Positions 1 through 62,202 of a stretch of DNA of 64,000 nt are shown here, in pieces. Position 1 is the stretch's first letter. Each line of letters opens with the position of its first letter. A model generated the notes under the pieces. It made no database searches. It saw only the letters and a list, made by a program, of their open reading frames with translations, and was not told the DNA's origin. The stretch lies in contig OY754469.1 of NCBI GenBank assembly GCA_963575645.1, forward strand, positions 25,500,001 to 25,564,000. The letters run 5' to 3'. The translations under genes were made by a program, and so were the position numbers. This DNA is from Xanthostigma xanthostigma (Eukaryota > Arthropoda > Insecta > Raphidioptera > Raphidiidae).

Positions 1-165
1 CGCATACAAGCAGTTTTTACATGCTTTATGACAACTAGGGGCGAATGAGTCCATATAGGCAAAATTGCTTTATTTAATGAAGGTAAGTCTATTTACACTA
101 TAACATTTAGGTTTGGATCATTCTCTCATAAGAAAATGCAAACTGCATATTAACCATTATTTTAA
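1..165 (+). repeat. Reference monomer and its anatomy (variant a)
   Basis: This first full unit sets the numbering used here. Fairly constant segments are 8-24 (aagcag, T5, acatgct) and 120-150 (cattctctcataagaaaatg followed by caaactgcatat). Variable segments are 3-6, 25-42 (ttatg, ttacg, tcacg or acacg, followed by aggtg, ggggc or gcgtg), 71-82 ('tttcatgaggg' or 'tttacaaagg') and 84-116. Within the unit are the dyad ATGCA-AAC-TGCAT at 136-148, a second short dyad GCAA-AA-TTGC at 59-68, and 'ggtaagt' near 82-88. This copy has the variant a marks: 'cgcatac', 'acaactagggg' and 'gcgaatgagtccatat'. Variant a recurs at 4788, 12050, 13700, 18648, 20463, 25579, 27724, 29704, 34490, 43566 and 45216, and it is a convenient start point for the HOR. 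Confidence 0.95.
136..148. other. Conserved dyad ATGCA-AAC-TGCAT (example)
   Basis: Positions 136-148 of nearly every monomer read ATGCA, AAC, TGCAT: a perfect 5-bp inverted repeat around 3 bp, flanked by 'gaaa' and 'atta'. It sits inside the best conserved part of the monomer. Rare broken copies are 'atgtaatttgcat' before h, 'attgcaaagtgcat' in aa, 'actgaatatt' before z, and the insertion at about 62008. A role as protein-binding site or cruciform-prone element is inference. Confidence 0.75.
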
Positions 166-1301
166 CGCAAACAAGCAGTTTTTACATGCTTCACGACAAT
201 TGCGTGCAAATGAGTCCTTATAGGCAAAAATGCTTTATTTTACAAAGGTAAGTCTATTTACACTATAACATTCAGGTTTGGATCATTCTCTCATAAGAAA
301 ATGCAAACTGCATATTAACCATTATTTAAACGCAGACAAGCAGTTTTTACATGCTTTACGACAATTAGGTGCAAATGAGTCCTTATAAGCAAAATTGTTT
401 TATTTCATGAGGGTTAGTCTATTTACACTATAACATTTAGGTTTGGATCATTCTCTCATAAGAAAATGCAAACTGCATATTAACCATTATTTAAACGCAG
501 ACAAGCAGTTTTTACATGCTTTACGACAATTAGGTGCAAATGAGTCTTTATAAGCAAAATTGCTTTATTTCATGAGGATAAGTCTATTTACACTAGAACA
601 TTCAGGTTTGGATCAATCTTTCATAAGAAAATGCAAACTGCATATTAACCATTATTTTAACGCAGACAAGCAGTTTTTACATGCTACACGACAATTGCGT
701 GCAAATGAGTCCTTATAGGCAAAATTGCTTTATTTTACAAAAGTAAGTCTATTTTTACTATAACATTCAGGTTTTGATCATTCTCTCATAAGAAAATGCA
801 AACTGCATATTAACCATTATTTTAACGCTGACAAGCAGTTTTTACATGCTTTACGACAATTAGGTGCAAATAAGTCCTTATAGGCAAAATTGCTTTATTT
901 TACAAAGGTAAGTTTACTTAAACTATAACATTCAGGTTTAGATCATTCTCTCATAAGAAAATGCAAACTGCATATTAACTATTATTTTAACGCATACAAG
1001 CAGTTTTTACATGCTTTATGACAATTAGGTGCAAATGAGTCTTTATAGGCAAAATTGCTTTTTTTCATGAGGGTAAGTCTATTTACACTATAACATTCAG
1101 GTTTGGATCATTCTCTCATAAGAAAATGCAAACTGCATATTTACTATCATTTTAACGCATACAAGCAGTTTTTACATGCTTTAGGACAATTAGGTGCAAA
1201 TAAGTCCTTATAGGCAAAATTGCTTTATTTTACAAAGGTAAGTTTACTTAAACTATAACATTCAGGTTTAGATCATTCTCTCATAAGAAAATGCAAACTG
1301 C

Positions 1302-1309
1302 ATAAATTA
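1302..1309. other. +2-bp junction 'ataaatta' before variant k (example)
   Basis: The usual 'gcatattaac' reads 'gcataaattaac' here, which makes this unit 167 bp. The same junction is seen at 6419, 9721, 15331, 22094, 31005, 36121, 41237 and 46847. It always precedes k, so it is a single ancient event spread by block duplication and a useful tag for aligning HOR copies. Confidence 0.9.
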
Positions 1310-1652
1310 ACTATTATTTTAACGCATACAAGCAGTTTTTACATGCTTTATGACAATTAGGTGCAAATGAGTCTTTATAGGCAAAATTGCTTTATTTCAT
1401 GAGGGTTAGTCTATTTACACTATAACATTCAGGTTTGGATCATTCTCTCATAAGAAAATGCAAACTGCATATTTACTATCATTTTAACGCATACAAGCAG
1501 TTTTTACATGCTTTATGACAATTAGGTGCAAATGAGTCTTTATAAGCAAAATTGCTTTATTTCATGAGGGTAAGTCTATTTACACTATAACATTCAGGTT
1601 TGGATCATTCTTTCATAAGAAAATGCAAACTGCATATTAACCATTATTTTAA

Positions 1653-4292
1653 CGCAGACAAGCAGTTTTTACATGCTACACGACAATTGCGTGCAAATGA
1701 GTCCTTATAGGCAAAATTGCTTTATTTTACAAAAGTAAGTCTATTTTTACTATAACATTCAGGTTTGGATCATTCTCTCATAAGAAAATGCAAACTGCAT
1801 ATTAACCATTATTTTAACTCATACAAGCAGTTTTTACATGCTTTATGACAATTAGGGTCAAATGAGTCCTTATAGGCAAAATTGCTTTATTTCATGAAGG
1901 TAAGTCTATTTACACTATACCATTCAATTTTGGATCATTCTCTCATAAGAAAATGCAAACTGCATATTAACCATTATTTTAACGCATACAAGCAGTTTTT
2001 ACATGCTTTATGACAATTAGGGTCAAATGAGTCCTTATAGGCAAAATTGCTTTATTTCATGAAGGTAAGTCTATTTACACTATACCATTCAATTTTGGAT
2101 CATTCTCTCATAAGAAAATGCAAACTGCAAATTAACCATTATTTTAACGCTGACAAGCAGTTTTTACATGCTTTATGACAATTAGGGGCAAATAAGTCCT
2201 TATAGGCAAAATTGCTTTATTTCATGAAGGTAAGTCTATTTACACTATGACATTCAGGTTTGGATCATTCTCTCATAAGAAAATGCAAACTGCATATTAA
2301 CCATTATTTAAACGCAGACAAGCAGTTTTACATGCTTTACGACAATTAGGTGCAAATGAGTCCTTATAAGCAAAATTGCTTTATTTCATGAGGGTTAGTC
2401 TATTTACACTATAACATTTAGGTTTGGATCATTCTCTCATCAGAAAATGCAAACTGCATATTAACCATTATTTAAACGCAGACAAGCAGTTTTTACATGC
2501 TTTACGACAATTAGGTGCAAATGAGTCTTTATAGGCAAAATTGCTTTATTTCATGAGGATAAGTCAATTTACGCTATACCATTCAGGTTTGGATCAATCT
2601 TTCATAAGAAAATGCAAACTGCATATTAACCATTATTTTAACGCAGACAAGCAGTTTTTACATGCTTTATGACAATTAGGTGCAAATGAGTCTTTATAGG
2701 CAAAATTGCTTTATTTCATGAGGGTTAGTCTATTTACACTATAACATTTAGGTTTTTGATCCTTCTCTAATAAGAAAATGCAAACTGCATATTTACTATC
2801 ATTTTCACGCAGATAAGCAGTTTTTACATGCTTCACGACAATTTCGTGCAAATGAGTCCTTATAGGCAAAATTGCTTTATTTTACAAAGGTAAGTCTATT
2901 TACACTATAACATTCAGGTTTGGATCATTCTCTCATAAGAAAATGCAAACTGCATATTAACCATTATTTTAACGCAGACAAGCAGTTTTTACATGCTACA
3001 CGACAATTGCGTGCAAATGAGTCCTTATAGGCAAAATTGCTTTATTTTACAAAAGTAAGTCTATTTTTACTATAACATTCAGGTTTGGATCATTCTCTCA
3101 TAAGAAAATGCAAACTGCATATTAACCATTATTTTAACGCATACAAGCAGTTTTTACATGCTTTATGACAATTAGGGTCAAATGAGTCCTTATAGGCAAA
3201 ATTGCTTTATTTCATGAAGGTAAGTCTATTTACACTATACCATTCAATTTTGGATCATTCTCTCATAAGAAAATGCAAACTGCATATTAACCATTATTTT
3301 AACGCATACAAGCAGTTTTTACATGCTTTATGACAATTAGGGTCAAATGAGTCCTTATAGGCAAAATTGCTTTATTTCATGAAGGTAAGTCTATTTACAC
3401 TATACCATTCAATTTTGGATCATTCTCTCATAAGAAAATGCAAACTGCAAATTAACCATTATTTTAACGCTGACAAGCAGTTTTTACATGCTTTATGACA
3501 ATTAGGGGCAAATAAGTCCTTATAGGCAAAATTGCTTTATTTCATGAAGGTAAGTCTATTTACACTATGACATTCAGGTTTGGATCATTCTCTCATAAGA
3601 AAATGCAAACTGCATATTAACCATTATTTAAACGCAGACAAGCAGTTTTTACATGCTTTACGACAATTAGGTGCAAATGAGTCCTTATAAGCAAAATTGC
3701 TTTATTTCATGAGGGTTAGTCTATTTACACTATACCATTTAGGTTTGGATCATTCTCTCATCAGAAAATGCAAACTGCATATTAACCATTATTTAAACGC
3801 AGACAAGCAGTTTTTACATGCTTTACGACAATTAGGTGCAAATGAGTCTTTATAGGCAAAATTGCTTTATTTCATGAGGATAAGTCTATTTACGTTATAC
3901 CATTCAGGTTTGGATCAATCTTTCATAAGAAAATGCAAACTGCATATTAACCATTATTTTAACGCAGACAAGCAGTTTTTACATGCTTTATGACAATTAG
4001 GTGCAAATGAGTCTTTATAGGCAAAATTGCTTTATTTCATGAAGGTTAGTCTATTTACACTATAACATTTAGGTTTGGATCCTTCTCTCATAAGAAAATG
4101 CAAACTGCATATTTACTATCATTTTCACGCAGATAAGCAGTTTTTACATGCTTCACGACAATTTCGTGCAAATGAGTCCTTATAGGCAAAATTGCTTTAT
4201 TTTACAAAGGTAAGTCTATTTACACTATAACATTCAGGTTTGGATCATTCTCTCATAAGAAAATGCAAACTGCATATTAACCATTATTTTAA
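1653..4292. repeat. Tandem duplication of an 8-monomer block (m-t)
   Basis: Units m n o p q r s t at 1653-2972 are followed at once by the same eight at 2973-4292. The offset is 1,320 bp. The 'gcaaattaacc' mark of p lies near 2127 and again near 3447. The copies are almost identical. The first has one fewer T in q ('gcagttttaca'), an extra T in s ('ggtttttgatcc') and 'ctaataag' instead of 'ctcataag'. The second has 'tacgttatacc' where the first has 'tacgctatacc'. The near identity suggests a recent local event. Confidence 0.9.
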
Positions 4293-4477
4293 CGCATACA
4301 AGCAGTTTTTATATGCTTTATGACAATTAGGGGCAAATGAGTCTATATAGGCAAAATTGCTTTATTTTACAAAGGTAAGTTTTTTTTAACTATAACATTC
4401 AGGTTTAGATCATTCTCTCATAAGAAAATGCAAACTGCATATTAACTATTATTTTAACGCATACAATCAGTTTTTAC

Positions 4478-4483
4478 AAGCTT
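4478..4483. other. HindIII-type site AAGCTT marking variant v
   Basis: A change of 'acatgcttta' to 'acaagcttta' at monomer positions 21-26 makes AAGCTT in variant v only, as far as I could see. The v units start at 4458, 6935, 18318, 25249, 27394, 34160, 37957, 48023 and 53466. The site therefore marks the HOR and not the monomer. The spacing between 34160 and 37957 is 3,797 bp, one canonical HOR. Confidence 0.85.
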
Positions 4484-4787
4484 TATGACAATTAGGTGCA
4501 AATGAGTCCTTACAGGCAAAATTGCTTTATTTCATGAGTGTAAGTCTATTTACACTATAACATTCAGGTTTAGATCATTCTCTCATAAGAAAATGTAAAC
4601 TGCATATTAACCAATATTTTAACGCAGACAAGCAGTTTTTACATGCTTCACGACAATTGCGTGCAAATGAGTCCTTATAGGCAAAATTGCTTTATTTTAC
4701 AAAGGTAAGTCTATTTTTACTATAACAATCAGGTTTAGATCATTCTCTCATAAGAAAATGCATACTGCATATTAACCATTATTTTAA

Positions 4788-7264
4788 CGCATACAAGCAG
4801 TTTTTACATGCTTTATGACAACTAGGGGCGAATGAGTCCATATAGGCAAAATTGCTTTATTTCATGAAGGTAAGTCTATTTACACTATAACATTTAGGTT
4901 TGGATCATTCTCTCATAAGAAAATGCAAACTGCATATTAACCATTATTTATACGCAAACAAGCAGTTTTTACATGCTTCACGACAATTGCGTGCAAATGA
5001 GTCCTTATAGGCAAAAATGCTTTATTTTACAAAGGTAAGTCTACTTACACTATAACATTCAGGTTTGGATTATTCTCTCATAAGAAAATGCAAACTGCAT
5101 ATTAACCATTATTTAAACGCAGACAAGCAGTTTTTACATGCTTTACGACAATTAGGTGCAAATGAGTCTTTATAAGCAAAATTGCTTTATTTCATGAGGA
5201 TAAGTCTATTTACACTAGAACATTCAGGTTTGGATCAATCTTTCATAAGAAAATGCAAACTGCATATTAACCATTATTTTAACGCAGACAAGCAGTTTTT
5301 ACATGCTACACGACAATTAGGTGCAAATGAGTCTTTATAAGCAAAATTGCTTTATTTCATGAGGATAAGTCTATTTACACTAGAACATTCAGGTTTGGAT
5401 CAATCTTTCATAAGAAAATGCAAACTGCATATTAACCATTATTTTAACGCAGACAAGCAGTTTTTACATGCTACACGACAATTGCGTGCAAATGAGTCCT
5501 TATAGGCAAAATTGCTTTATTTTACAAAAGTAAGTCTATTTTTACTATAACATTCAGGTTTTGATCATTCTCTCATAAGAAAATGCAAACTGCATATTAC
5601 CCATTATTTTAACGCTGACAAGCAGTTTTTACATGCTTTATGACAATTAGGGGCAAATAGGTCCTTATAGGCAAAATTGCTTTATTTCATGAGGGTTAGT
5701 CTATTTACACTATAACATTTAGGTTTGGATCATTCTATCATAAGAAAATGCAAACTGCATATTAACCATTATTTTAACGCAGACAAGCAGTTTTTACATG
5801 CTTTATGACAATTAGATGCAAATGAGTCCTTATAGGCAAAATTGCTTTATTTCATGAAGGTATAACTATTTACACTATAACATTCAGGTTTGGATCATTC
5901 TCTCATAAGAAAATGTAATTTGCATATTATCCATTATTTTAACGCAGACAAACAGTTTTTACATGCTTTACGACAATTAGGTGCAAATAAGTCCTTATAG
6001 GCAAAATTGCTTTATTTTACAAAGGTAAGTTTACTTAAACTATAACATTCAGGTTTAGATCATTCTCTCATAAGAAAATGCAAACTGCATGTTAACTATT
6101 ATTTTAACGCATACAAGCAGTTTTTACATGCTTTATGACAATTAGGTGCAAATGAGTCTTTATAGGCAAAATTGCTTTTTTTCATGAGGGTAAGTCTATT
6201 TACACTATAACATTCAGGTTTGGATCATTCTCTCATAAGAAAATGCAAACTACATATTTACTATCATTTTAACGCATACAAGCAGTTTTTACATGCTTTA
6301 GGACAATTAGGTGCAAATAAGTCCTTATAGGCAAAATTGCTTTATTTTACAAAGGTAAGTTTACTTAAACTATAACATTCAGGTTTAGATCATTCTCTCA
6401 TAAGAAAATGCAAACTGCATAAATTAACTATTATTTTAACGCATACAAGCAGTTTTTACATGCTTTATGACAATTAGGTGCAAATGAGTCTTTATAGGCA
6501 AAATTGCTTTATTTCATGAGGGTAAGTCTATTTACACTATAACATTCAGGTTTGGATCATTCTCTCATAAGAAAATGCAAACTGCATATTTACTATCATT
6601 TTAACGCATACAAGCAGTTTTTACATGCTTCACGACAATTTTGTGCAAATGAGTCCTTATAGGCAAAATTGCTTTATTTTACAAAGGTAAGTCTATTTAC
6701 ACTATAACATTCATGTTTGGATCATTCTCTCATAAGAAAATGCAAACTGCATATTAACCATTATTTTAACGCATACAAGCAGTTTTTATATGCTTTATGA
6801 CAATTAGGGGCAAATGAGTCTATATAGGCAAAATTGCTTTATTTTACAAAGGTAAGTTTTTTTTAACTATAACATTCAGGTTTAGATCATTCTCTCATAA
6901 GAAAATGCAAACTGCATATTAACTATTATTTTAACGCATACAATCAGTTTTTACAAGCTTTATGACAATTAGGTGCAAATGAGTCCTTACAGGCAAAATT
7001 GCTTTATTTCATGAGTGTAAGTCTATTTACACTATAACATTCAGGTTTAGATCATTCTCTCATAAGAAAATGTAAACTGCATATTAACCAATATTTTAAC
7101 GCAGACAAGCAGTTTTTACATGCTTCACGACAATTGCGTGCAAATGAGTCCTTATAGGCAAAATTGCGTTATTTTACAAAGGTAAGTCTATTTTCACTAT
7201 AACATTCAGGTTTGGATCATTCTCTCATAAGAAAATGCAAACTGCATATTATACATTATGTTAA
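4788..7264. repeat. Shortened HOR copy (a-w lacking c and l-s)
   Basis: The order is a b d, a hybrid e/d at 5283, e f g h i j k, then a jump to t u v w. The hybrid starts 'gctacacg' like e but continues 'attaggtgcaaatgagtcttt', 'ataagc' and 'cactagaac' like d, so the switch lies inside the monomer near position 30-35. After k, the unit at 6605 starts 'cgcatac' but has 'cttcacgacaattttgtgc' and 'ttacaaagg' like t. Monomers l to s are therefore absent as a block. Confidence 0.82.
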
Positions 7265-8089
7265 CGCATAAAAGCAGTTTTTACATGCTTTATGACAATT
7301 AGGGGCAAATGAGTCCTTATAGGAAAAATTGCTTTATTTCATGAAGGTAAGTCTATTTACACTAGAACATTCAGGTTTGGATCATTCTCTCATAAGAAAA
7401 TGCAAACTGCATATTAACCATTATTTTAACGCTGACAAGCAGTTTTTACATGCTTTATGACAATTAGAAGCAAATGAGTCTTTATAGACAAAATTGCTTT
7501 ATTTCATGAAGGTAAGTCTATTTACACTATAACAATCAGGTTTGGATCATTCTCTCATAAGAAAATGCAAACTGAATATTAACCATTATTTTAACGCTGA
7601 CAAGCAGTTTTTACATGCTTTACGACAATTAGGTGCAAATGAGTCCTTATAGGCAAAAGTGCTTTATTTCATGAGGGTAAGTCTATTTACACTATAACAT
7701 TCAGGTTTGGATCATTCTCTCATAAGAAAATGCAAACTGCATATTTACTATCATTTTCACGCAGACAAGCAGTTTTCACATGTTTTACGACAATTAGGTG
7801 GAAATAAGTCCTTAAAGGCAAAATTGTTTTATTTCACAAAGGTAAGTCTACTTTCACTATAACATTCAGGTTTGGATAATTCTCTCATTAGAAATTGCAA
7901 AGTGCATATTAACCTTTATTTTAACGCAGACAAGCAGTTTTTACATGCTTCACGACAATTGCGTGCAAATGAGTCCTTATAGGCAAAATTGCTTTATTTT
8001 ACAAAAGTAAGTCTATTTTTACTATAACATTCAGGTTTTGATCATTCTCTCATAAGAAAATGCAAACTGCATATTAACCATTATTTTAA
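7265..8089. repeat. Accessory monomer block x-y-z-aa-bb
   Basis: Five units not found in the canonical HOR follow w: x (preceded by 'tatacattatgttaacg', with 'taggaaaaattg'), y ('tagaagcaaatg', 'atagacaaa', 'ataacaatc'), z (preceded by 'ctgaatatt', 'caaaagtgc'), aa ('ttttcacatgttttacg', 'gtggaaataag', 'cttaaagg', 'aaattgcaaagtgc') and a bb/e hybrid (after 'aacctttatttt'). The same order recurs at 53796-54621. Parts of it recur at 10402-11061, 41918-42577, 51322-51816 and 57590-57919. Confidence 0.85.
7760..7924. repeat. Most divergent monomer type (aa)
   Basis: This unit differs from the consensus at more sites than any other type I read: 'ttttcacatgttttacg' for 'tttttacatgctttacg', 'gtggaaataagtccttaaagg', 'gttttatttcacaaagg', 'tctactttcac', 'ggataattctctcattag' and 'aaattgcaaagtgc'. 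The last change breaks the left arm of the conserved dyad. Further aa copies start at 10732, 42248, 51487, 54291 (one extra A, 'caagcaagtttt') and 57590, each followed by bb ('aacctttatttt' or 'aacatttatttt'). Confidence 0.88.
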
Positions 8090-11000
8090 CGCTGACAAGC
8101 AGTTTTTACATGCTTTATGACAATTAGGGGCAAATAGGTCCTTATAGGCAAAATTGCTTTACTTCATGAGGGTTAGTCTATTTACACTATAACATTTAGG
8201 TTTGGATCATTCTCTCATAAGAAAATGCAAACTGCATATTAACCATTATTTTAACGCAGACAAGCAGTTTTTACATGCTTTATGACAATTAGGGGCAAAT
8301 GAGTCCTTATAGGCAAAATTGCTTTATTTCATGAAGGTATAACTATTTACACTATAACATTCAGGTTTGGATCATTCTCTCATAAGAAAATGTAATTTGC
8401 ATATTATCCATTATTTTAACGCAGACAAGCAGTTTTTACATGCTTTACGACAATTAGGTGCAAATAAGTCCTTATAGGCAAAATTGCTTTATTTTACAAA
8501 GGTAAGTTTACTTAAACTATAACATTCAGGTTTAGATCATTCTCTCATAAGAAAATGCAAACTGCATATTAACTATTATTTTAACGCATACAAGCAGTTT
8601 TTACATGCTTTATGACAATTAGGTGCAAATAAGTCCTTATAGGCAAAATTGCTTTATTTTACAAAGGTAAGTTTACTTAAACTATAACATTCAGGTTTAG
8701 ATCATTCTCTCATAAGAAAATGCAAACTGCATATTAACTATTATTTTAACGCAGACAAGCAGTTTTTACATGCTACACGACAATTGCGTGCAAATGAGTC
8801 CTTATAGGCAAAATTGCTTTATTTTACAAAAGTAAGTCTATTTTTACTATAACATTCAGGTTTTGATCATTCTCTCATAAGAAAATGCAAACTGCATATT
8901 AACCATTATTTTAACGCTGACAAGCAGTTTTTACATGCTTTATGACAATTAGGGGCAAATAGGTCCTTATAGGCAAAATTGCTTTACTTCATGAGGGTTA
9001 GTCTATTTACACTATAACATTTAGGTTTGGATCATTCTCTCATAAGAAAATGCAAACTGCATATTAACCATTATTTTAACGCAGACAAGCAGTTTTTACA
9101 TGCTTTATGACAATTAGGGGCAAATGAGTCCTTATAGGCAAAATTGCTTTATTTCATGAAGGTATAACTATTTACACTATAACATTCAGGTTTGGATCAT
9201 TCTCTCATAAGAAAATGTAATTTGCATATTATCCATTATTTTAACGCAGACAAGCAGTTTTTACATGCTTTACGACAATTAGGTGCAAATAAGTCCTTAT
9301 AGGCAAAATTGCTTTATTTTACAAAGGTAAGTTTACTTAAACTATAACATTCAGGTTTAGATCATTCTCTCATAAGAAAATGCAAACTGCATATTAACTA
9401 TTATTTTAACGCATACAAGCAGTTTTTACATGCTTTATGACAATTAGGTGCAAATGAGTCTTTATAGGCAAAATTGCTTTTTTTCATGAGGGTAAGTCTA
9501 TTTACACTATAACATTCAGGTTTGGATCATTCTCTCATAAGAAAATGCAAACTGCATATTTACTATCATTTTAACGCATACAAGCAGTTTTTACATGCTT
9601 TAGGACAATTAGGTGCAAATAAGTCCTTATAGGCAAAATTGCTTTATTTTACAAAGGTAAGTTTACTTAAACTATAACATTCAGGTTTAGATCATTCTCT
9701 CATAAGAAAATGCAAACTGCATAAATTAACTATTATTTTAACGCATACAAGCAGTTTTTACATGCTTTATGACAATTAGGTGCAAATGAGTCTTTATAGG
9801 CAAAATTGCTTTATTTCATGAGGGTAAGTCTATTTACACTATAACATTCAGGTTTGGATCATTCTCTCATAAGAAAATGCAAACTGCATATTTACTATCA
9901 TTTTAACGCATACAAGCAGTTTTTACATGCTTTATGACAATTAGGTGCAAATGAGTCTTTATAAGCAAAATTGCTTAATTTCATGAGGGTAAGTCTATTT
10001 ACACTATAACATTCAGGTTTGGATCATTCTTTCATAAGAAAATGCAAACTGCATATTAACCATTATTTTAACGCAGACAAGCAGTTTTTACATGCTACAC
10101 GACAATTGCGTGCAAATGAGTCCTTATAGGCAAAATTGCTTTATTTTACAAAAGTAAGTCTATTTTTACTATAACATTCAGGTTTGGATCATTCTCTCAT
10201 AAGAAAATGCAAACTGCATATTAACCATTATTTTAACGCAGACAAGCAGTTTTTACATGCTACACGACAATTGCGTGCAAATGAGTCCTTATAGGCAAAA
10301 TTGCTTTATTTTACAAAAGTAAGTCTATTTTTACTATAACATTCAGGTTTTGATCATTCTCTCATAAGAAAATGCAAACTGCATATTAACCATTATTTTA
10401 ACGCTGACAAGCAGTTTTTACATTCTTTATGACAATTAGGGGCAAATACGTCCTTATAGACAAAATTGCTTTATTTCATGAAGGTAAGTCTATTTACACT
10501 ATAACAATCAGGTTTGGATCATTCTCTCATAAGAAAATGCAAACTGAATATTAACTATTATTTTAACGCTGACAAGCAGTTTTTACATGCTTTGCGACAA
10601 TTAGGTGCAAATGAGTCCTTATAGGCAAAAGTGCTTTATTTCATGAGGGTTAGTCTATTTACACTATAACATTCAGGTTTGGATCATTCTCTCATAAGAA
10701 AATGCAAACTGCATATTTACTATCATTTTCACGCAGACAAGCAGTTTTCACATGTTTTACGACAATTAGGTGGAAATAAGTCCTTAAAGGCAAAATTGTT
10801 TTATTTCACAAAGGTAAGTCTACTTTCACTATAACATTCAGGTTTGGATAATTCTCTCATTAGAAATTGCAAAGTGCATATTAACCTTTATTTTAACGCA
10901 GACAAGCAGTTTTTACATGCTTCACGACAATTGCGTGCAAAAGAGTCCTTATAGGCAAAATTGCTTTATTTTACAAAGGTAAGTCTATTTACACTATAAC

Positions 11001-38286: not shown

Positions 38287-41200
38287 CGCATACAAGCAGT
38301 TTTTAAATGCTTTATGACAATTAGGGGAAATGAGTCCTTATAGACAAAATTGCTTTATTTCATGAAGGTAAGTCTATTTACACTATGACATTTAGGTTTG
38401 GATCTTACTCTCATAAGAAAATGCAAACGGCATATTAACCATTATTTAAACGCAGACAAGCAGTTTTTACATGCTTTACGACAATTAGGTGCAAATGAGT
38501 CTTTATAGGCAAAATTGCTTTATTTTATGAAAGTAAGTCTATTTACACTATAACATTCAGGTTTGGATCAATTTCTCATAAGAAAATGCAAACTGCATAT
38601 TAACCATTATTTTAACGCTGACAAGCAGTTTTTACATGCTTTATGACAATTAGAAGCAAATAAGTCTTTATAGACAAAATTGCTTTATTTCATGAAGGTA
38701 AGTCTATTTACACTATAACAATCAGGTTTGGATCATTCTCTCATAAGAAAATGCAAACTGAATATTAACCATTATTTTAACGCTGACAAGCAGTTTTTAC
38801 ATGCTTTACGACAATTAGGTGCAAATGAGTCCTTATAAGCAAAATTGTTTTATTTCATGAGGGTTAGTCTATTTACACTATAACATTTAGGTTTGGATCA
38901 TTCTCTCATAAGAAAATGCAAACTGCATATTAACCATTATTTAAACGCAGACAAGCAGTTTTTACATGCTTTACGACAATTAGGTGCAAATGAGTCTTTA
39001 TAAGCAAAATTGCTTTATTTCATGAGGATAAGTCTATTTACACTAGAACATTCAGGTTTGGATCAATCTTTCATAAGAAAATGCAAACTGCATATTAACC
39101 ATTATTTTAACGCAGACAAGCAGTTTTTACATGCTACACGACAATTGCGTGCAAATGAGTCCTTATAGGCAAAATTGCTTTATTTTACAAAAGTAAGTCT
39201 ATTTTTACTATAACATTCAGGTTTTGATCATTCTCTCATAAGAAAATGCAAACTGCATATTAACCATTATTTTAACGCTGACAAGCAGTTTTTACATGCT
39301 TTATGACAATTAGGGGCAAATAGGTCCTTATAGGCAAAATTGCTTTACTTCATGAGGGTTAGTCTATTTACACTATAACATTTAGGTTTGGATCATTCTC
39401 TCATAAGAAAATGCAAACTGCATATTAACCATTATTTTAACGCAGACAAGCAGTTTTTACATGCTTTATGACAATTAGGGGCAAATGAGTCCTTATAGGC
39501 AAAATTGCTTTATTTCATGAAGGTATAACTATTTACACTATAACATTCAGGTTTGGATCATTCTCTCATAAGAAAATGTAATTTGCATATTATCCATTAT
39601 TTTAACGCAGACAAGCAGTTTTTACATGCTTTATGACAATTAGGGGCAAATAGGTCCTTATAGGCAAAATTGCTTTACTTCATGAGGGTTAGTCTATTTA
39701 CACTATAACATTTAGGTTTGGATCATTCTCTCATAAGAAAATGCAAACTGCATATTAACCATTATTTTAACGCTGACAAGCAGTTTTTACATGCTTTATG
39801 ACAATTAGGGGCAAATAGGTCCTTATAGGCAAAATTGCTTTACTTCATGAGGGTTAGTCTATTTACACTATAACATTTAGGTTTGGATCATTCTCTCATA
39901 AGAAAATGCAAACTGCATATTAACCATTATTTTAACGCAGACAAGCAGTTTTTACATGCTTTATGACAATTAGGGGCAAATGAGTCTTTATAGGCAAAAT
40001 TGCTTTATTTCATGAGGGTAAGTCTATTTACACTATAACATTCAGGTTTGGATCATTCTCTCATAAAAAAATGCAAACTGCATATTAACCATTATTTTAA
40101 CGCAGACAAGCAGTTTTTACATGCTTTACGACAATTAGGTGCAAATGAGTCTTTATAGGCAAAATTGCTTTATTTCATGAGGATAAGTCTATTTACACTA
40201 GAACATTCAGGTTTGGATCAATCTTTCATAAGAAAATGCAAACTGCATATTAACCATTATTTTAACGCAGACAAGCAGTTTTTACATGCTTCACGACAAT
40301 TGCGTGCAAATGAGTCCTTATAGGCAAAATTGCTTTATTTTACAAAAGTAAGTCTATTTTTACTATAACATTCAGGTTTTGATCATTCTCTCATAAGAAA
40401 ATGCAAACTGCATATTAACCATTATTTTAACGCTGACAAGCAGTTTTTACATGCTTTATGACAATTAGGGGCAAATAGGTCCTTATAGGCAAAATTGCTT
40501 TACTTCATGAGGGTTAGTCTATTTACACTATAACATTTAGGTTTGGATCATTCTCTCATAAGAAAATGCAAACTGCATATTAACCATTATTTTAACGCAG
40601 ACAAGCAGTTTTTACATGCTTTATGACAATTAGGGGCAAATGAGTCCTTATAGGCAAAATTGCTTTATTTCATGAAGGTATAACTATTTACACTATAACA
40701 TTCAGGTTTGGATCATTCTCTCATAAGAAAATGTAATTTGCATATTATCCATTATTTTAACGCAGACAAGCAGTTTTTACATGCTTTACGACAATTAGGT
40801 GCAAATAAGTCCTTATAGGCAAAATTGCTTTATTTTACAAAGGTAAGTTTACTTAAACTATAACATTCAGGTTTAGATCATTCTCTCATAAGAAAATGCA
40901 AACTGCATATTAACTATTATTTTAACGCATACAAGCAGTTTTTACATGCTTTATGACAATTAGGTGCAAATGAGTCTTTATAGGCAAAATTGCTTTTTTT
41001 CATGAGGGTAAGTCTATTTACACTATAACATTCAGGTTTGGATCATTCTCTCATAAGAAAATGCAAACTGCATATTTACTATCATTTTAACGCATACAAG
41101 CAGTTTTTACATGCTTTAGGACAATTAGGTGCAAATAAGTCCTTATAGGCAAAATTGCTTTATTTTACAAAGGTAAGTTTACTTAAACTATAACATTCAG

Positions 41201-43565
41201 GTTTAGATCATTCTCTCATAAGAAAATGCAAACTGCATAAATTAACTATTATTTTAACGCATACAAGCAGTTTTTACATGCTTTATGACAATTAGGTGCA
41301 AATGAGTCTTTATAGGCAAAATTGCTTTATTTCATGAGGGTAAGTCTATTTACACTATAACATTCAGGTTTGGATCATTCTCTCATAAGAAAATGCAAAC
41401 TGCATATTTACTATCATTTTAACGCATACAAGCAGTTTTTACATGCTTTATGACAATTAGGTGCAAATGAGTCTTTATAAGCAAAATTGCTTTATTTCAT
41501 GAGGGTAAGTCTATTTACACTATAACATTCAGGTTTGGATCATTCTTTCATAAGAAAATGCAAACTGCATATTAACCATTATTTTAACGCAGACAAGCAG
41601 TTTTTACATGCTACACGACAATTGCGTGCAAATGAGTCCTTATAGGCAAAATTGCTTTATTTTACAAAAGTAAGTCTATTTTTACTATAACATTCAGGTT
41701 TGGATCATTCTCTCATAAGAAAATGCAAACTGCATATTAACCATTATTTTAACGCAGACAAGCAGTTTTTACATGCTACACGACAATTGCGTGCAAATGA
41801 GTCCTTATAGGCAAAATTGCTTTATTTTACAAAAGTAAGTCTATTTTTACTATAACATTCAGGTTTTGATCATTCTCTCATAAGAAAATGCAAACTGCAT
41901 ATTAACCATTATTTTAACGCTGACAAGCAGTTTTTACATTCTTTATGACAATTAAGGGCAAATACGTCCTTATAGACAAAATTGCTTTATTTCATGAAGG
42001 TAAGTCTATTTACACTATAACAATCAGGTTTGGATCATTCTCTCATAAGAAAATGCAAACTGAATATTAACCATTATTTTAACGCTGACAAGCAGTTTTT
42101 ACATGCTTTACGACAATTAGGTGCAAATGAGTCCTTATAGGCAAAAGTGCTTTATTTCATGAGGGTTAGTCTATTTACACTATAACATTCAGGTTTGGAT
42201 CATTCTCTCATAAGAAAATGCAAACTGCATATTTACTATCATTTTCACGCAGACAAGCAGTTTTCACATGTTTTACGACAATTAGGTGGAAATAAGTCCT
42301 TAAAGGCAAAATTGTTTTATTTCACAAAGGTAAGTCTACTTTCACTATAACATTCAGGTTTGGATAATTCTCTCATTAGAAATTGCAAAGTGCATATTAA
42401 CATTTATTTTAACGCAGACAAGCAGTTTTTACATGCTTCACGACAATTGCGTGCAAAAGAGTCCTTATAGGCAAAATTGCTTTATTTTACAAAGGTTAGT
42501 CTCTTTACACTATAACATTCAGGTTTGGATCATTCTCTCATAAGAAAATGCAAACTGCATATTAACCATTATTTTAACGCAGACAAGCAGTTTTTACATG
42601 CTTTATGACAATTAGGGGCAAATGAGTCCTTATAGGCAAAATTGCTTTATTTCATGTAGGTATAACTATTTACACTATAACATTCAGGTTTGGATCATTC
42701 TCTCATAAGAAAATGCAAACTGCATATTATCCATTATTTTAACGCAGACAAGCAGTTTTTACATGCTTTACGACAATTAGGTGCAAATAAGTCCTTATAG
42801 GCAAAATTGCCTAATTTTACAAAGGTAGTTTACTTAAACTATAACATTCAGGTTTAGATCATTCTCTCATAAGAAAATGCAAACTGCATATTAACTATTA
42901 TTTTAACGCATACAAGCAGTTTTTACATGCTTTATGACAATTAGGTGCAAATGAGTCTTTATAGGCAAAATTGCTTTATTTCATGAGGGTAAGTCTATTT
43001 ACACTATAACATTCAGGTTTGGATCATTCTCTCATAAGAAAATGCAAACTGAATATTAACCATTATTTTAACGCAGACAAGCAGTTTTTACATGCTTTAT
43101 GACAATTAGGGGCAAATGAGTCCTTATAGGCAAAATTGCTTTATTTCATGAAGGTATAACTATTTACACTATAACATTCAGGTTTGGATCATTCTCTCAT
43201 AAGAAAATGCAAACTGCATATTATCCATTATTTTAACGCAGACAAGCAGTTTTTACATGCTTTACGACAATTAGGTGCAAATAAGTCCTTATAGGCAAAA
43301 TTGCTTAATTTTACAAAGGTAGTTTACTTAAACTATAACATTCAGGTTTAGATCATTCTCTCATAAGAAAATGCAAACTGCATATTAACTATTTTTTTAA
43401 CGCATACAAGCAGTTTTTACATGCTTTATGACAATTAGGTGCAAATGAGTCTTTATAGGCAAAATTGCTTTATTTCATGAGGGTAAGTCTATTTACACTA
43501 TAACATTCAGGTTTGGATCATTCTCTCATAAGAAAATGCAAACTGCATATTAACCATTATTTTAA
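38287..43565. repeat. Mosaic segment related to 8.1-12.0 kb
   Basis: The order is A' B' y c d e f g f f s' d e f g h i j k l m e, an f/y hybrid (41918), z aa bb g h k g h k. A' ('tttttaaatgc', 'ggggaaatg', 'ggatcttactc') and B' belong to the second HOR family, so they sit here ahead of its main territory. An unusual 'cataaaaaaatgc' lies near 40065, in s', and recurs near 50460. From 40431 on it follows 8915 onward at an offset of 31,516 bp. Confidence 0.82.
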
Positions 43566-45215
43566 CGCATACAAGCAGTTTTTACATGCTTTATGACAAC
43601 TAGGGGCGAATGAGTCCATATAGGCAAAATTGCTTTATTTCATGAAGGTAAGTCTATTTACACTATAACATTTAGGTTTGGATCATTCTCTCATAAGAAA
43701 ATGCAAACTGCATATTAACCATTATTTTAACGCAAACAAGCAGTTTTTACATGCTTCACGACAATTGCGTGCAAATGAGTCCTTATAGGCAAAAATGCTT
43801 TATTTTACAAAGGTAAGTCTATTTACACTATAACATTCAGGTTTGGATCATTCTCTCATAAGAAAATGCAAACTGCATATTAACCATTATTTAAACGCAG
43901 ACAAGCAGTTTTTACATGCTTTACGACAATTAGGTGCAAATGAGTCCTTATAAGCAAAATTGTTTTATTTCATGACGGTTAGTCTATTTACACTATAACA
44001 TTTAGGTTTGGATCATTCTCTCATAAGAAAATGCAAACTGCATATTAACCATTATTTAAACGCAGACAAGCAGTTTTTACATGCTTTACGACAATTAGGT
44101 GCAAATGAGTCTTTATAAGCAAAATTGCTTTATTTCATGAGGATAAGTCTATTTACACTAGAACATTCAGGTTTGGATCAATCTTTCATAAGAAAATGCA
44201 AACTGCATATTAACCATTATTTTAACGCAGACAAGCAGTTTTTACATGCTACACGACAATTGCGTGCAAATGAGTCCTTATAGGCAAAATTGCTTTATTT
44301 TACAAAAGTAAGTCTATTTTTACTATAACATTCAGGTTTTGATCATTCTCTCATAAGAAAATGCAAACTGCATATTAACCATTATTTTAACGCTGACAAG
44401 CAGTTTTTACATGCTTTATGACAATTAGGGGCAAATAGGTCCTTATAGGCAAAATTGCTTTACTTCATGAGGGTTAGTCTATTTACACTATAACATTTAG
44501 GTTTGGATCATTCTCTCATAAGAAAATGCAAACTGCATATTAACCATTATTTTAACGCAGACAAGCAGTTTTTACATGCTTTATGACAATTAGGGGCAAA
44601 TGAGTCCTTATAGGCAAAATTGCTTTATTTCATGAAGGTATAACTATTTACACTATAACATTCAGGTTTGGATCATTCTCTCATAAGAAAATGTAATTTG
44701 CATATTATCCATTATTTTAACGCAGACAAGCAGTTTTTACATGCTTTATGACAATTAGGGGCAAATAGGTCCTTATAGGCAAAATTGCTTTACTTTATGA
44801 GGGTTAGTCTATTTACACTATAACATTTAGGTTTGGATCATTCTCTCATAAGAAAATGCAAACTGCATATTAACCATTATTTTAACGCTGACAAGCAGTT
44901 TTTACATGCTTTATGACAATTAGGGGCAAATAGGTCCTTATAGGCAAAATTGCTTTACTTCATGAGGGTTAGTCTATTTACACTATAACATTTAGGTTTG
45001 GATCATTCTCTCATAAGAAAATGCAAACTGCATATTAACCATTATTTTAACGCAGACAAGCAGTTTTTACATGCTTTATGACAATTAGGGGCAAATGAGT
45101 CTTTATAGGCAAAATTGCTTTATTTCATGAGGGTAAGTCTATTTACACTATAACATTCAGGTTTGGATCATTCTCTCATAAGAAAATGCAAACTGCATAT
45201 TAACCATTATTTTAA
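43566..45215. repeat. 10-monomer sub-HOR block, relative of 12050-13699
   Basis: These 1,650 bp have the order a b c d e f g f f s'. The last unit has 'catgagggtaag' rather than 'cattaggggaag'. Small marks are 'catgacggttag' in c (near 43974) and 'tactttatgag' in the eighth unit (near 44790). A second, shorter block follows directly at 45216. Confidence 0.87.
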
Positions 45216-46700
45216 CGCATACAAGCAGTTTTTACATGCTTTATGACAACTAGGGGCGAATGAGTCCATATAGGCAAAATTGCTTTATTTCATGAAGGTA
45301 AGTCTATTTACACTATAACATTTAGGTTTGGATCATTCTCTCATAAGAAAATGCAAACTGCATATTAACCATTATTTTAACGCAAACAAGCAGTTTTTAC
45401 ATGGTTCACGACAATTGCGTGCAAATGAGTCCTTATAGACAAAAATGCTTTATTTTACAAAGGTAAGTCTATTTACACTATAACATTCAGGTTTGGATCA
45501 TTCTCTCATAAGAAAATGCAAACTGCATATTAACCATTATTTTAACGCTGACAAGCAGTTTTTACATGCTTTACGACAATTAGGTGCAAATGAGTCCTTA
45601 TAAGCAAAATTGTTTTATTTCATGAGGGTTAGTCTATTTACACTATAACATTTAGGTTTGGATCATTCTCTCATAAGAAAATGCAAACTGCATATTAACC
45701 ATTATTTAAACGCAGACAAGCAGTTTTTACATGCTTTACGACAATTAGGTGCAAATTAGTCTTTATAAGCAAAATTGCTTTATTTCATGAGGATAAGTCT
45801 ATTTACACTAGAACATTCAGGTTTGGATCAATCTTTCATAAGAAAATGCAAACTGCATATTAACCATTATTTTAACGCAGACAAGCAGTTTTTACATGCT
45901 ACACGACAATTGCGTGCAAATGAGTCCTTATAGGCAAAATTGCTTTATTTTACAAAAGTAAGTCTATTTTTACTATAACATTCAGGTTTTGATCATTCTC
46001 TCATAAGAAAATGCAAACTGCATATTAACCATTATTTTAACGCTGACAAGCAGTTTTTACATGCTTTATGACAATTAGGGGCAAATAGGTCCTTATAGGC
46101 AAAATTGCTTTACTTCATGAGGGTTAGTCTATTTACACTATAACATTTAGGTTTGGATCATTCTCTCATAAGAAAATGCAAACTGCATATTAACCATTAT
46201 TTTAACGCAGACAAGCAGTTTTTACATGCTTTATGACAATTAGGGGCAAATGAGTCCTTATAGGCAAAATTGCTTTATTTCATGAAGGTATAACTATTTA
46301 CACTATAACATTCAGGTTTGGATCATTCTCTCATAAGAAAATGTAATTTGCATATTATCCATTATTTTAACGCAGACAAGCAGTTTTTACATGCTTTATG
46401 ACAATTAGGGGCAAATAGGTCCTTATAGGCAAAATTGCTTTACTTCATGAGGGTAAGTCTATTTACACTATAACATTTACGTTTGGATCATTCTCTCATA
46501 AGAAAATGCAAACTGCATATTAACCATTATTTTAACGCTGACAAGCAGTTTTTACATGCTTTATGACAATTAGGGGCAAATAGGTCCTTATAGGCAAAAT
46601 TGCTTTACTTCATGAGGGTTAGTCTATTTACACTATAACATTTAGGTTTGGATCATTCTCTCATAAGAAAATGCAAACTGCATATTAACCATTATTTTAA
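45216..46700. repeat. 9-monomer sub-HOR block carrying 'atggttcacg'
   Basis: The order is a b c d e f g f f, 1,485 bp. It carries the private marks 'acatggttcacg' (near 45401), c starting 'cgctgac', and 'catttacgtttgg' (near 46477), all shared with 12050-13534 at an offset of 33,166 bp. After it comes an e unit that ends in the 'cataaattaac' junction of k, another in-register fusion. Confidence 0.87.
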
Positions 46701-49700
46701 CGCAGACAAGCAGTTTTTACATGCTACACGACAATTGCGTGCAAATGAGTCCTTATAGGCAAAATTGCTTTATTTTACAAAAGTAAGTCTATTTTTACTA
46801 TAACATTCAGGTTTTGATCATTCTCTCATAAGAAAATGCAAACTGCATAAATTAACTATTATTTTAACGCATACAAGCAGTTTTTACATGCTTTATGACA
46901 ATTAGGTGCAAATGAGTCTTTATAGGCAAAATTGCTTTATTTCATGAGGGTAAGTCTATTTACACTATAACATTCAGGTTTGCATCATTCTCTCATAAGA
47001 AAATGCAAACTGCATATTTACTATCATTTTAACGCATACAAGCAGTTTTTACATGCTTTATGACAATTAGGTGCAAATGAGTCTTTATAGGCAAAATTGC
47101 TTTATTTCATGAGGGTTAGTCTATTTACACTATAACATTTAGGTTTGGATCATTCTCTCATCAGAAAATGCAAACTGCATATTAACCATTATTTAAACGC
47201 AGACAAGCAGTTTTTACATGCTTTACGACAATTAGGTGCAAATGAGTCTTTATAGGCAAAATTGCTTTATTTCATGAGGATAAGTCTATTTACGCTATAC
47301 CATTCAGGTTTGGATCAATCTTTCATAAGAAAATGCAAACTGCATATTAACCATTATTTTAACGCAGACAAGCAGTTTTTACATGCTTTATGACAATTAG
47401 GTGCAAATGAGTCTTTATAGGCAAAATTGCTTTATTTCATGAGGGTAAGTCTATTTACACTATAACATTCAGGTTTGCATCATTCTCTCATAAGAAAATG
47501 CAAACTGCATATTTACTATCATTTTAACGCATACAAGCAGTTTTTACATGCTTTATGACAATTAGGTGCAAATGAGTCTTTATAGGCAAAATTGCTTTAT
47601 TTCATGAGGGTTAGTCTATTTACACTATAACATTTAGGTTTGGATCATTCACTTATAAGAAAATGCAAACTGCATATTTACTATCATTTTCACGCAGACA
47701 AGCAGTTTTTACATGCTTCACGACAATTTCGTGCAAATGAGTCCTTATAGGCAAAATTGCTTTATTTTACAAAGGTAAGTCTATTTACACTATAACATTC
47801 AGGTTTGGATCATTCTCTCATAAGAAAATGCAAACTGCATATTAACCATTATTTTAACTCATACAAGCAGTTTTTATATGCTTTATGACAATTAGGGGCA
47901 AATGAGTCTATATAGGCAAAATTGCTATATTTTACAAAGGTAAGTTTTTATTAACTATAACATTCAGGTTTAGATCATTCTCTCATAAGAAAATGCAAAC
48001 TGCATATTAACTATTATTTTAACGCATACAATCAGTTTTTACAAGCTTTATGATAATTAGGTGCAAATGAGTCCTTACAGGCAAAATTGCTTTATTTCAT
48101 GAGTGTAAGTCTATTTACACTATAACATTCAGGTTTAGATCATTCTCTCATAAGAAAATGTAAACTGCATATTAACCAATATTTTAACGCAGACAAGCAG
48201 TTTTTACATGCTTCACGACAATTGCGTGCAAATGAGTCCTTATAGGCAAAATTGCGTTATTTTACAAAGGTAAGTCTATTTTCACTATAACATTCAGGTT
48301 TGGATCATTCTCTCATAAGAAAATGCAAACTGCATATTAACCATTATTTTAACGCATACAAGCAGTTTTTAAATGCTTTATGACAATTAGGGGAAATGAG
48401 TCCTTATAGACAAAATTGCTTTATTTCATGAAAGTAAGTCTATTTACACTATGACATTCAGGTTTGGATCTTACTCTCATAAGAAAATGCAAACGGCATA
48501 TTAACCATTATTTAAACGCAGACAAGCAGTTTTTACATGCTTTACGACAATTAGGTGCAAATGAGTCTTTATAGGCAAAATTGCTTTATTTTATGAAAGT
48601 AAGTCTATTTACACTATAACATTCAGGTTTGGATCATTCTCTCATAAGAAAATGCAAACTGCATATTAACCATTATTTAAACGCAGACAAGCAGTTTTTA
48701 CATGCTTTACGACAATTAGGTGCAAATGAGTCCTTATAAGCAAAATTGTTTTATTTCATGAGGGTTAGTCTATTTACACTATAACATTCAGGTTTGGATC
48801 ATTCTCTCATAAGAAAATGCAAACTGCATATTAACCATTATTTTAACGCTGACAAGCAGTTTTTACATGCTTTATGACAATTAGAAGCAAATGAGTCTTT
48901 ATAGACAAAATTGCTTTATTTCATGAAGGTAAGTCTATTTACACTATAACAATCAGGTTTGGATCATTCTCTCATAAGAAAATGCAAACTGAATATTAAC
49001 CATTATTTTAACGCTGACAAGCAGTTTTTACATGCTTTACGACAATAAGGTGCAAATGAGTCTTTATAGGCAAAATTGCTTTATTTTATGAAAGTAAGTC
49101 TATTTACACTATAACATTCAGGTTTGGATCATTCTCTCATAAGAAAATGCAAACTGCATATTAACCATTATTTAAACGCAGACAAGCAGTTTTTACATGC
49201 TTTACGACAATTAGGTGCAAATGAGTCCTTATAAGCAAAATTGTTTTATTTCATGAGGGTTAGTCTATTTACACTATAACATTTAGGTTTGGATCATTCT
49301 CTCATAAGAAAATGCAAACTGCATATTAACCATTATTTAAACGCAGACAAGCAGTTTTTACATGCTTTACGACAATTAGGTGCAAATGAGTCTTTATAAG
49401 CAAAATTGCTTTATTTCATGAGGATAAGTCTATTTACACTAGAACATTCAGGTTTGGATCAATCTTTCATAAGAAAATGCAAACTGCATATTAACCATTA
49501 TTTTAACGCAGACAAGCAGTTTTTACATGCTACACGACAATTGCGTGCAAATGAGTCCTTATAGGCAAAATTGCTTTATTTTACAAAAGTAAGTCTATTT
49601 TTACTATAACATTCAGGTTTTGATCATTCTCTCATAAGAAAATGCAAACTGCATATTAACCATTATTTTAACGCTGACAAGCAGTTTTTACATGCTTTAT

Positions 49701-51816
49701 GACAATTAGGGGCAAATAGGTCCTTATAGGCAAAATTGCTTTACTTCATGAGGGTTAGTCTATTTACACTATAACATTTAGGTTTGGATCATTCTCTCAT
49801 AAGAAAATGCAAACTGCATATTAACCATTATTTTAACGCAGACAAGCAGTTTTTACATGCTTTATGACAATTAGGGGCAAATGAGTCCTTATAGGCAAAA
49901 TTGCTTTATTTCATGAAGGTATAACTATTTACACTATAACATTCAGGTTTGGATCATTCTCTCATAAGAAAATGTAATTTGCATATTATCCATTATTTTA
50001 ACGCAGACAAGCAGTTTTTACATGCTTTATGACAATTAGGGGCAAATAGGCCCTTATAGGCAAAATTGCTTTACTTCATGAGGGTTAGTCTATTTACACT
50101 ATAACATTTAGGTTTGGATCATTCTCTCATAAGAAAATGCAAACTGCATATTAACCATTATTTTAACGCTGACAAGCAGTTTTTACATGCTTTATGACAA
50201 TTAGGGGCAAATAGGTCCTTATAGGCAAAATTGCTTTACTTCATGAGGGTTAGTCTATTTACACTATAACATTTAGGTTTGGATCATTCTCTCATAAGAA
50301 AATGCAAACTGCATATTAACCATTATTTTAACGCAAACAAGCAGTTTTTACATGCTTTATGACAATTAGGGGCAAATGAGTCTTTATAGGCTAAATTGCT
50401 TTATTTCATGAGGGTAAGTCTATTTACACTATAACATTCAGGTTTGGATCATTCTCTCATAAAAAAATGCAAACTGCATATTAACCATTATTTTAACGCA
50501 GACAAGCAGTTTTTACATGCTTTACGACAATTAGGTGCAAATGAGTCTTTATAGGCAAAATTGCTTTATTTCATGAGGATAAGTCTATTTACACTAGAAC
50601 ATTCAGGTTTGGATCAATCTTTCATAAGAAAATGCAAACTGCATATTAACCATTATTTTAACGCAGACAAGCAGTTTTTACATGCTACACGACAATTGCG
50701 TGCAAATGAGTCCTTATAGGCAAAATTGCTTTATTTTACAAAAGTAAGTCTATTTTTACTATAACATTCAGGTTTTGATCATTCTCTCATAAGAAAATGC
50801 AAACTGCATATTAACCATTATTTTAACGCTGACAAGCAGTTTTTACATGCTTTATGACAATTAGGGGCAAATAGGTCCTTATAGGCAAAATTGCTTTACT
50901 TCATGAGGGTTAGTCTATTTACACTATAACATTTAGGTTTGGATCATTCTCTCATAAGAAAATGCAAACTGCATATTAACCATTATTTTAACGCAGACAA
51001 GCAGTTTTTACATGCTTTATGACAATTAGGGGCAAATGAGTCTTTATAGGCAAAATTGCTTTACTTCATGAGGGTTAGTCTATTTACACTATAACATTTA
51101 GGTTTGGATCATTCTCTCATAAGAAAATGCAAACTGCATATTAACCATTATTTTAACGCAGACAAGCAGTTTTTACATGCTTTATGACAATTAGGGGCAA
51201 ATGAGTCTTTATAGGCAAAATTGCTTTATTTCATGAGGGTAAGTCTATTTACACTATAACATTCAGGTTTGGATCATTCTCTCATAAGAAAATGCAAACT
51301 GCATATTAACCATTATTTTAACGCTGACAAGCAGTTTTTACATGCTTTATGACAATTAGAAGCAAATGAGTCTTTATAGACAAAATTGCTTTATTTCATG
51401 AAGGTAAGTCTATTTACACTATAACAATCAGGTTTGGATCATTCTCTCATAAGAAAATGCAAACTGCATATTAACCATTATTTAAACGCAGACAAGCAGT
51501 TTTCACATGTTTTACGACAATTAGGTGGAAATAAGTCCTTAAAGGCAAAATTGTTTTATTTCACAAAGGTAAGTCTACTTTCACTATAACATTCAGGTTT
51601 GGATAATTCTCTCATTAGAAATTGCAAAGTGCATATTAACCTTTATTTTAACGCAGAAAAGCAGTTTTTACATGCTTCACGACAATTGCGTGCAAAAGAG
51701 TCCTTATAGGCAAAATTGCTTTATTTTACAAAGGTAAGTCTATTTACACTATAACATTCAGGTTTGGATCATTCTCTCATAAGAAAATGCAAACTGCATA
51801 TTAACCATTATTTTAA
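46701..51816. repeat. Mosaic segment related to 37.6-40.8 kb
   Basis: The order is e/j fusion, k, k/q, r, s/k, s, t u v w, A' B', c y, z/B' hybrid, c d e f g f f s' d e f, s'/f, s', y aa bb. Marks shared with 37.6-40.8 kb are 'tatgataattagg' in v (48050 and 37985), 'gcgttattttac' in w, A' and B', and 'cataaaaaaatgc' in s'. The offset is 10,066 bp on the left and about 10,395 bp on the right; the change is a duplication of two monomers around 48682-49176. Confidence 0.82.
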
Positions 51817-61213: not shown

Positions 61214-62202
61214 CGCAGACAAGCAGTTTTTACATGCTTTACAAAATTAGGTGCAAATGAGTCTTTATAGGCAAAATTGCTTTATTTCATGAGGGTAAGT
61301 CTATTTACACTATAATATTCAGGTTTGGATCATTCTCTCATAAGAAAATGCAAACTGCATATTTACTATCATTTTCACGCAGAAAAGCAGTTTTTACATG
61401 CTTCACGACAATTGCGTGCAAATTAGTCCTTATAGGCAAAATTGCTTTATTTTACAAAGGTAAGTCTATTTACACTATAATATTCAGGTTTGGATCATTC
61501 TCTCATAAGAAAATGCAAACTGCATATTAACCATTATTTTAACGCATACAAGCAGTTTTTACATGCTTTATGACAATTAGGGGCAAATGAGTCCTTATAG
61601 GCAAAATTGCATTATTTCGAGAAGGTAAGTCTATTTACACTATAACATTTAGGTTTGGATCATTCTCTCATAAGAAAATGCAAACTGCATATTAACCATT
61701 ATTTAAACGCAGACAAGCAGTTTTTACATGCTTTATGACAATTAGGGGCAAATGAGTCCTTATAGGCAAAATTGCTTTATTTCATGAAGGTAAGTCTATT
61801 TACACTATAACATTTAGGTTTGGATCATTCTCTCATAAGAAAATGCAAACTGCATATTAACCATTATTTTAACGCAAACAAGCAGTTTTTACATGCTTCA
61901 CGACAATTGCGTGCAAATGAGTCCTTATAGGCAAAATTGCTTTATTTTACAAAGGTAAGTCTATTTACACTATAACATTCAGGTTTCGATCATTCTCTCA
62001 TAAGAAAATAAAAAACTGCATATTAACCATTATTTAAACGCAGACAAGCAGTTTTTACATGCTTTACAAAATTAGGTGCAAATGAGTCCTTATAGGCAAA
62101 ATTGCTTTATTTCATGAGGGTAAGTCTATTTACACTATAACATTCAGGTTTGGATCATTCTCTCATAAGAAAATGCAAACTGCATATTAACCATTATATT
62201 AA
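61214..62202. repeat. Interposed K' E' F'' G' H' units
   Basis: The order is K', E', F'' (with 'gcattatttcgagaagg'), a g-like unit, G', H'. The E' at 61378 has 'agaaaagcag' and 'gcaaattagtcc', and the second change removes a stop codon and creates the only long open frame in the window. The G' at 61873 ends 'gaaaataaaaaactgc' instead of 'gaaaatgcaaactgc', an insertion that destroys the left arm of the conserved dyad. Confidence 0.82.

Follow-up and report, generated by a model that had tools for sequence, protein, structure and literature searches.

A block of satellite DNA midway along a 50.9-Mb contig of Xanthostigma xanthostigma (OY754469.1, here C6) raises the question of whether its monomers are arranged in a long higher-order repeat (HOR) and whether such a repeat could belong to a centromere. 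The window analyzed, by which we mean the whole 64,000-nucleotide stretch at C6:25500001–25564000, was found with TRF to be filled by a single head-to-tail array of period 165 bp (1..64000, + strand) in one orientation and with nothing else inside. Monomers were defined by cutting the window at CGC, which gave 387 monomers and a partial end. Exactly 165 bp is the length of 352 of the 387, the full range is 162–167 bp, and indels relative to the consensus are of 1–3 bases. The monomers are 91.7% identical on average in pairwise comparison; 197 are distinct, and 253 of the 387 are matched exactly by one or more others. The window has a G+C content of ∼31% (A+T ∼69%), contains no N bases, and was found to hold no complete open reading frame of at least 100 aa, no tRNA and no Rfam match. 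The longest perfect inverted repeat in the satellite consensus is only 7 bp, and the folding of the DNA of one monomer is unremarkable (z −0.70). The 17-bp motif that we take to be the CENP-B box has no match on either strand, which sets the array outside the CENP-B-box type of alpha satellite; a relaxed scan at 3 mismatches returned 533 and 10 matches and was uninformative. The consensus shows an A/T-step rhythm of 9.7 bp that 9 of 2000 base shuffles reach, which hints at nucleosome phasing and no more. With an observed/expected ratio of 0.46, CpG is depleted, and the CGC at the monomer start (positions 1–3) is retained in 383 of the 387 monomers, while a second CpG at monomer positions 29–30 reads TG in 186 of them. 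Contact with a protein might explain the retained CGC, or recent conversion alone.

The original prediction stated that at least 23 monomer variants recur in a fixed order, designated a to w, and that cutting at CGC, clustering the monomers and looking for a repeated monomer order would be the way to check it. To score the order, a 23-state cyclic model was seeded with the copy at 34490–38286. Within positions 1..51816 (+ strand), 252 of 313 neighbor steps are canonical under this model, as against a mean of 84 and a maximum of 107 in 100 shuffles. Counting only steps outside the template, 228 of 291 are canonical and the maximum in 200 shuffles is 104 of 290. Clustering of the monomers at 2.5 differences yielded 82 groups, and in the resulting string 270 of 385 three-monomer words recur (200 shuffles: mean 2.3, maximum 10), as do 126 of 381 words of seven monomers (none in the shuffles). 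The predicted order is thus found, far above shuffled expectation, and 1..51816 is a domain whose circular, 23-type order is interrupted by numerous insertions and deletions of whole monomers. The circularity follows from monomer w (label 19), which is succeeded by a (label 0) at four of its five sites. Several types are near-duplicates of each other, e/m and n/o being 1 base apart and c/q and i/k 2 bases apart. A complete copy had been placed at 34490..38286 (+ strand; 23 monomers, 3797 bp), and this is indeed the sole run holding all of a to w. The w that ends this run is a variant, 5 bases off the w of the other copies, and is not followed by a. All six of the copy starts given with the prediction (1, 4788, 13700, 20463, 29704 and 34490) are a starts, and six more were found at 12050, 18648, 25579, 27724, 43566 and 45216.

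At the heart of this domain is a contiguous tandem core (13700..38286, + strand) of seven a-starting units of 30, 11, 31, 13, 12, 29 and 23 monomers, sizes which indicate that the repeat has been heavily edited. In the core, monomers with the same letter are 99.0% identical (462 pairs), monomers with different letters 91.4% (10,564 pairs) and adjacent monomers 91.6%. The array therefore has what defines an HOR in two respects: distinct monomers follow a fixed order with copies far more alike than neighbors, and the units are adjacent in tandem. A dominant canonical unit that is mostly complete, as in the arrays described in portions of PMC12428378, was not found here, there being one complete unit. 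Long stretches have also been duplicated. A 23-monomer run (13700..17495, +) is repeated at 20463 with 99.7% identity, and a 30-monomer run (21948..26898, +), the longest unbroken near-identical run in the window, recurs at 30859 at an identity of 99.8%. This second run and the gap between 99.0% and 91.4% in the core support the earlier proposal that the block is homogenized at the multi-kilobase level.

The a–w order is confined to part of a much larger block. The rest of the window (51817..64000, + strand) forms a second domain, in which a separate order of ∼17–20 monomers appears in edited and partial copies: with a template at 54622 and K=20, 67 of 72 steps are canonical, 48 of 53 outside the template, and 200 shuffles reach at most 38. 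Within it, ∼52806–54621 is made of types also present in the first domain. The C6 block measures 2.3–2.6 Mb, with limits at 25.23–25.29 and 27.61–27.80 Mb. All 20 of the 10-kb pieces sampled across 25.29–27.61 Mb contain the satellite, at 54–100%. None was present at 25.15, 25.23 or 27.80 Mb, or at eleven other points within 22–30 Mb. The 23-mer patch occupies C6 ∼25.486–25.552 Mb, ∼0.2–0.3 Mb inside the left edge of the block; the order extends leftward from the window to ∼25.486 Mb and is weaker at 25.4975–25.500. Among the 10-kb samples, monomers at most 3 bases from a window monomer make up 51 of 59 at 25.49 Mb and from 2 of 54 to 42 of 60 elsewhere, and among neighbor pairs of such monomers, those in an order present in the window make up 43 of 55 at 25.48–25.50 Mb and 78 of 162 elsewhere in the sampled block. 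Fragments of the order, such as g-h-k-l, recur across the sampled pieces; the whole order does not. Other samples show best lags of, for example, 12, 14, 22, 28, 29, 31, 35 and 36 monomers, several of them weak. Given these other local orders and the shared fragments, the C6 block is best described as a quilt of which the 23-mer is one patch. Monomer a carries a 30-base marker whose exact copies number 23 in 623 Mb, all of them on the + strand of C6 at 25.493–25.627 Mb (134 kb); the first domain of the window holds 12, and another 2 lie to the left of the window and 9 to the right. For the a-b dimer, 40 full-length matches were scored among 1609 candidates; all scored ones lie on C6, and among them copies of 97–98% were seen at 25.75–26.12 Mb and, reversed, at 27.13–27.29 Mb. 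The block also carries other DNA: a Copia-type retrotransposon with one 1331-aa open frame lies inside the satellite at C6 ∼26.305–26.309 Mb, at most ∼26 kb from an orientation switch, and one sampled piece contains a 4-kb non-satellite insert (L027:2565–6577) with 840-aa and 270-aa open frames, neither matching a Pfam family at E 0.001.

The genome (623 Mb, 28 contigs, 20 of them compared by length) is contained in 13 large contigs of 18–84 Mb but for ∼1.6 Mb. The satellite was read densely on C6, and on the other contigs through exact matches and a few points of 200–300 bases. A 135-base consensus has 58 exact places on 10 of the 13 large contigs (C1 3, C2 4, C3 12, C4 13, C6 10, C7 1, C9 2, C10 2, C11 2, C12 9), and all 58 fall in one interior span per contig, at 40–66% along it and no more than 3.5 Mb wide. 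C5, C8 and C13 have no exact match to it, and six sampled points on C5 were without satellite. A 100-base consensus stretch has 199 places, and among the matches listed (100, on C1–C4) there is again one span per contig. A satellite 21-mer occurs in 104,762 copies, its reversed control in 0; from this count the satellite totals at least 17 Mb, or ∼22 Mb by the window's density. Two 21-mer copies lie outside the main span, at C1 6.90 Mb, among the matches listed (100 of 104,762). On C1, C2 and C4, sampled points within the spans are satellite at 92–96% to the consensus, and two points on C1 lack it, at 41.0 Mb (between matches) and at 40.2 Mb.

With one span per contig on 10 of the 13 large contigs, AT-rich monomers of nucleosome length, no genes and patch-wise homogenization, the window is probably centromere-region satellite made of local patches that were expanded by in-register recombination. 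The location is supported indirectly, by the single interior spans of long consensus matches on 10 of the 13 large contigs. The C6 block would support the kinetochore or its flanking heterochromatin. The original prediction went further in suggesting a functional centromere core. We think the odds slightly favor a patch that is pericentromeric only, with the kinetochore at some other place in the block, such as close to an orientation switch or on another repeat. From the position of the patch ∼0.2–0.3 Mb from the left edge of a 2.3–2.6-Mb block, a flanking or older patch appears a little more likely than an active core, and a proposal for human centromere 8, reviewed in PMC8997354, has newer repeats pushing older ones outward. 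On the other hand, recent duplications of 99.7–99.8% are present in this very patch, and none of the 20 sampled 10-kb pieces is plainly more uniform, the highest mean pairwise identity being 0.931. A pericentromeric patch is in any case a refinement of the centromere-region explanation and not its opposite. The layout of one span on each of these contigs makes the centromere reading directly testable by CenH3 mapping.

At each of the four jump penalties used (4, 6, 10 and 15), a unit length of 23 is a local optimum, and 30 is one at three of them (6, 10 and 15). Under every penalty the model gains no less when it reaches 30 than when it reaches 23, and a 30-monomer unit describes 1–51816 as well as one of 23. 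The 30-mer at 13700 differs from the 23-mer by two insertions, each a repeat of part of the 23-mer. One may ask whether there is any unit of fixed size, or whether the order is a by-product of repeated random segmental duplication and deletion and "23" an arbitrary reading of it. Closed lengths at both 23 and 30 would fit such an origin, as would the presence of one complete unit and the spacing between a starts, which ranges from 10 to 55 monomers. A steady 23-monomer lag is likewise absent, identity at lag 23 (0.9156) being just under the overall mean (0.9168). Against this stand the local optimum at 23 under all four penalties, the fact that the window's five best templates of 23 monomers are all frames of the one copy at 34490–38286, and the return from w to a that closes the circle. 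We regard the reading without a fixed unit as rather unlikely.

The orientation of the satellite along the spans raises a different picture, in which it forms many short-lived local patches in opposed orientations about switch points, and the active core could be marked by these switch points and not by any one repeat. At the places sampled, C6 is + as far as 26.283 Mb, − at both 26.30 and 26.50, + at 26.6–26.8 and − at 26.9–27.6 Mb. C2 is + at 29.5–30.2 Mb and − at 32 Mb, and C4 is + at 25.2–26.25 Mb and − at 27–27.4, both thus + on the left and − on the right. The span of C3 runs +, −, +, −, +. The long matches on C1, however, switch strand many times with no simple layout, and we consider the idea doubtful.

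The first domain falls into 62 ordered segments with 61 order breaks between them, and no monomer is truncated, all 387 being of 162–167 bp. Since these breaks leave no truncated monomer and indels are of only 1–3 bases, exchange was most likely homology-guided and in register. Each of 55 monomers at breaks was compared with the crossover product that its neighbors predict, among 529 parent pairs. The predicted pair has at most 5 strictly better pairs in 36 of the 55, most of these being end-point cases of a trivial sort. An interior hybrid is a better explanation than either parent for at least three kinds of junction (k-l/q-r, r-s/m-n and d-e/b-c); at the l/q junction, two to four other parent pairs fit better than the predicted one. 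Nine of the 55 rank poorly, with more than 200 of the 529 pairs better, and seven of these nine are extra f monomers. Together with the absence of truncated monomers at the 61 breaks, the crossover-like junctions suggest that the edits would arise by homologous in-register exchange or break-induced copying. Unequal exchange and break-induced replication, both given as models in sections of PMC8997354, would each fit, and the data do not separate them. Among 169 duplicated runs, identity is unrelated to lag and copies are spread over all distances. This lack of identity loss with distance argues against simple neighbor-by-neighbor growth. Near-identical arrays are difficult to assemble, and collapsed or chained reads might in principle have made the duplications. 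This is highly improbable, given that scattered base differences separate the duplicated runs (group means 99.4–99.6%), every monomer keeps a length of 162–167 bp and the window is free of N.

Long HORs are best known from primates, in the material drawn on from PMC8997354 and PMC12428378, and units this long or longer occur in apes, including a 34-mer on the human Y and a 58-mer on the orangutan Y (portions of PMC12428378). What the array shares with the cascading and variant HORs of primate alpha satellite, as parts of the same two papers describe them, is divergent monomers in fixed order with near-identical unit copies, as well as whole-monomer indels, internal repeats of types and several unit families per block. 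It differs in its 165-bp monomer, the lack of a CENP-B box and the lack of a majority canonical unit; the orangutan Y array has 258 canonical units of 310 (PMC12428378, in part), in contrast to one complete copy here. As an assembled case of a long HOR with a different monomer, the locus allows one to ask whether recombination rules, patch turnover and the layering of core and edge arise independently. Plant satellites with duplicated blocks are also on record, such as Palv156 of poplar (PMC12046899, in part), with which the array has in common local blocks of duplicated monomers that were analyzed as HORs. A further likeness is that the exact marker of monomer a is restricted to one chromosome, in a comparison of chromosomes at few points; Palv156 has a monomer length other than 165 bp and is set apart by its description, not by sequence.

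Other satellites with a 165-bp monomer share mainly that length, judged from partial accounts of each. TRAYC-like families such as CL68 of Silene share an imperfect 73-bp palindrome, whereas perfect inverted repeats here are of at most 7 bp; BhaSat03-165 of Belontia is 55.8% A+T, compared with ∼69% here; and variant I of StyloSat1 of Stylosanthes was compared by description only. Rice CentO (155/165 bp; excerpts of PMC2543021 and PMC6123737) likewise has a nucleosome-size monomer and one 10-bp string in common with the array. That the satellite is the 165-bp CentO of Oryza punctata, as the equal length and 78 occurrences in the window of the 10-bp insertion TTTATAGGCA reported for it (PMC6123737, in part) might suggest, has next to no chance of being right and was rejected, since two primers published in PMC2543021 (as excerpted) are absent from the window, matching no better than shuffled primers (15/25 and 12/18), and the contig starts examined have no TTTAGGG arrays. 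The satellite was not matched in plasmids, in IMG/VR apart from one exact 23-mer, or in GTDB contigs apart from one exact pattern, all being collections without eukaryote genomes. Six satellite strings were not found in the literature searched, and six shorter ones gave a single occurrence there, a 13-base string in one cattle-genotyping paper. The kind of HOR seems to be one already known, and the 165-bp sequence appears to be without a match in the literature and the non-eukaryote collections searched.

The contig starts have repeats of their own. The first 3000 bases of 10 of the 13 large contigs (C1, C3–C6, C8–C10, C12 and C13) begin with tandem arrays of 21–24 bp, whose motifs differ between contigs and include CCCTTTTTTGGGCCGTTTTTT, a TTTTTTAGCTCC type and an ACGCGC type. 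At the starts examined, there are no TTAGG, TTAGGG or TTTAGGG arrays, and to judge from sequence the 21–24-bp arrays look like a non-canonical telomere. C11 (1–3000) begins inside a frame that is presumably histone H2B-like and also contains the beginning of a linker histone; it is perhaps the edge of a histone cluster, in which case this contig end may be incomplete. Finally, the 204-kb contig C15 opens with the same 165-bp satellite on the minus strand (C15:1–3000).
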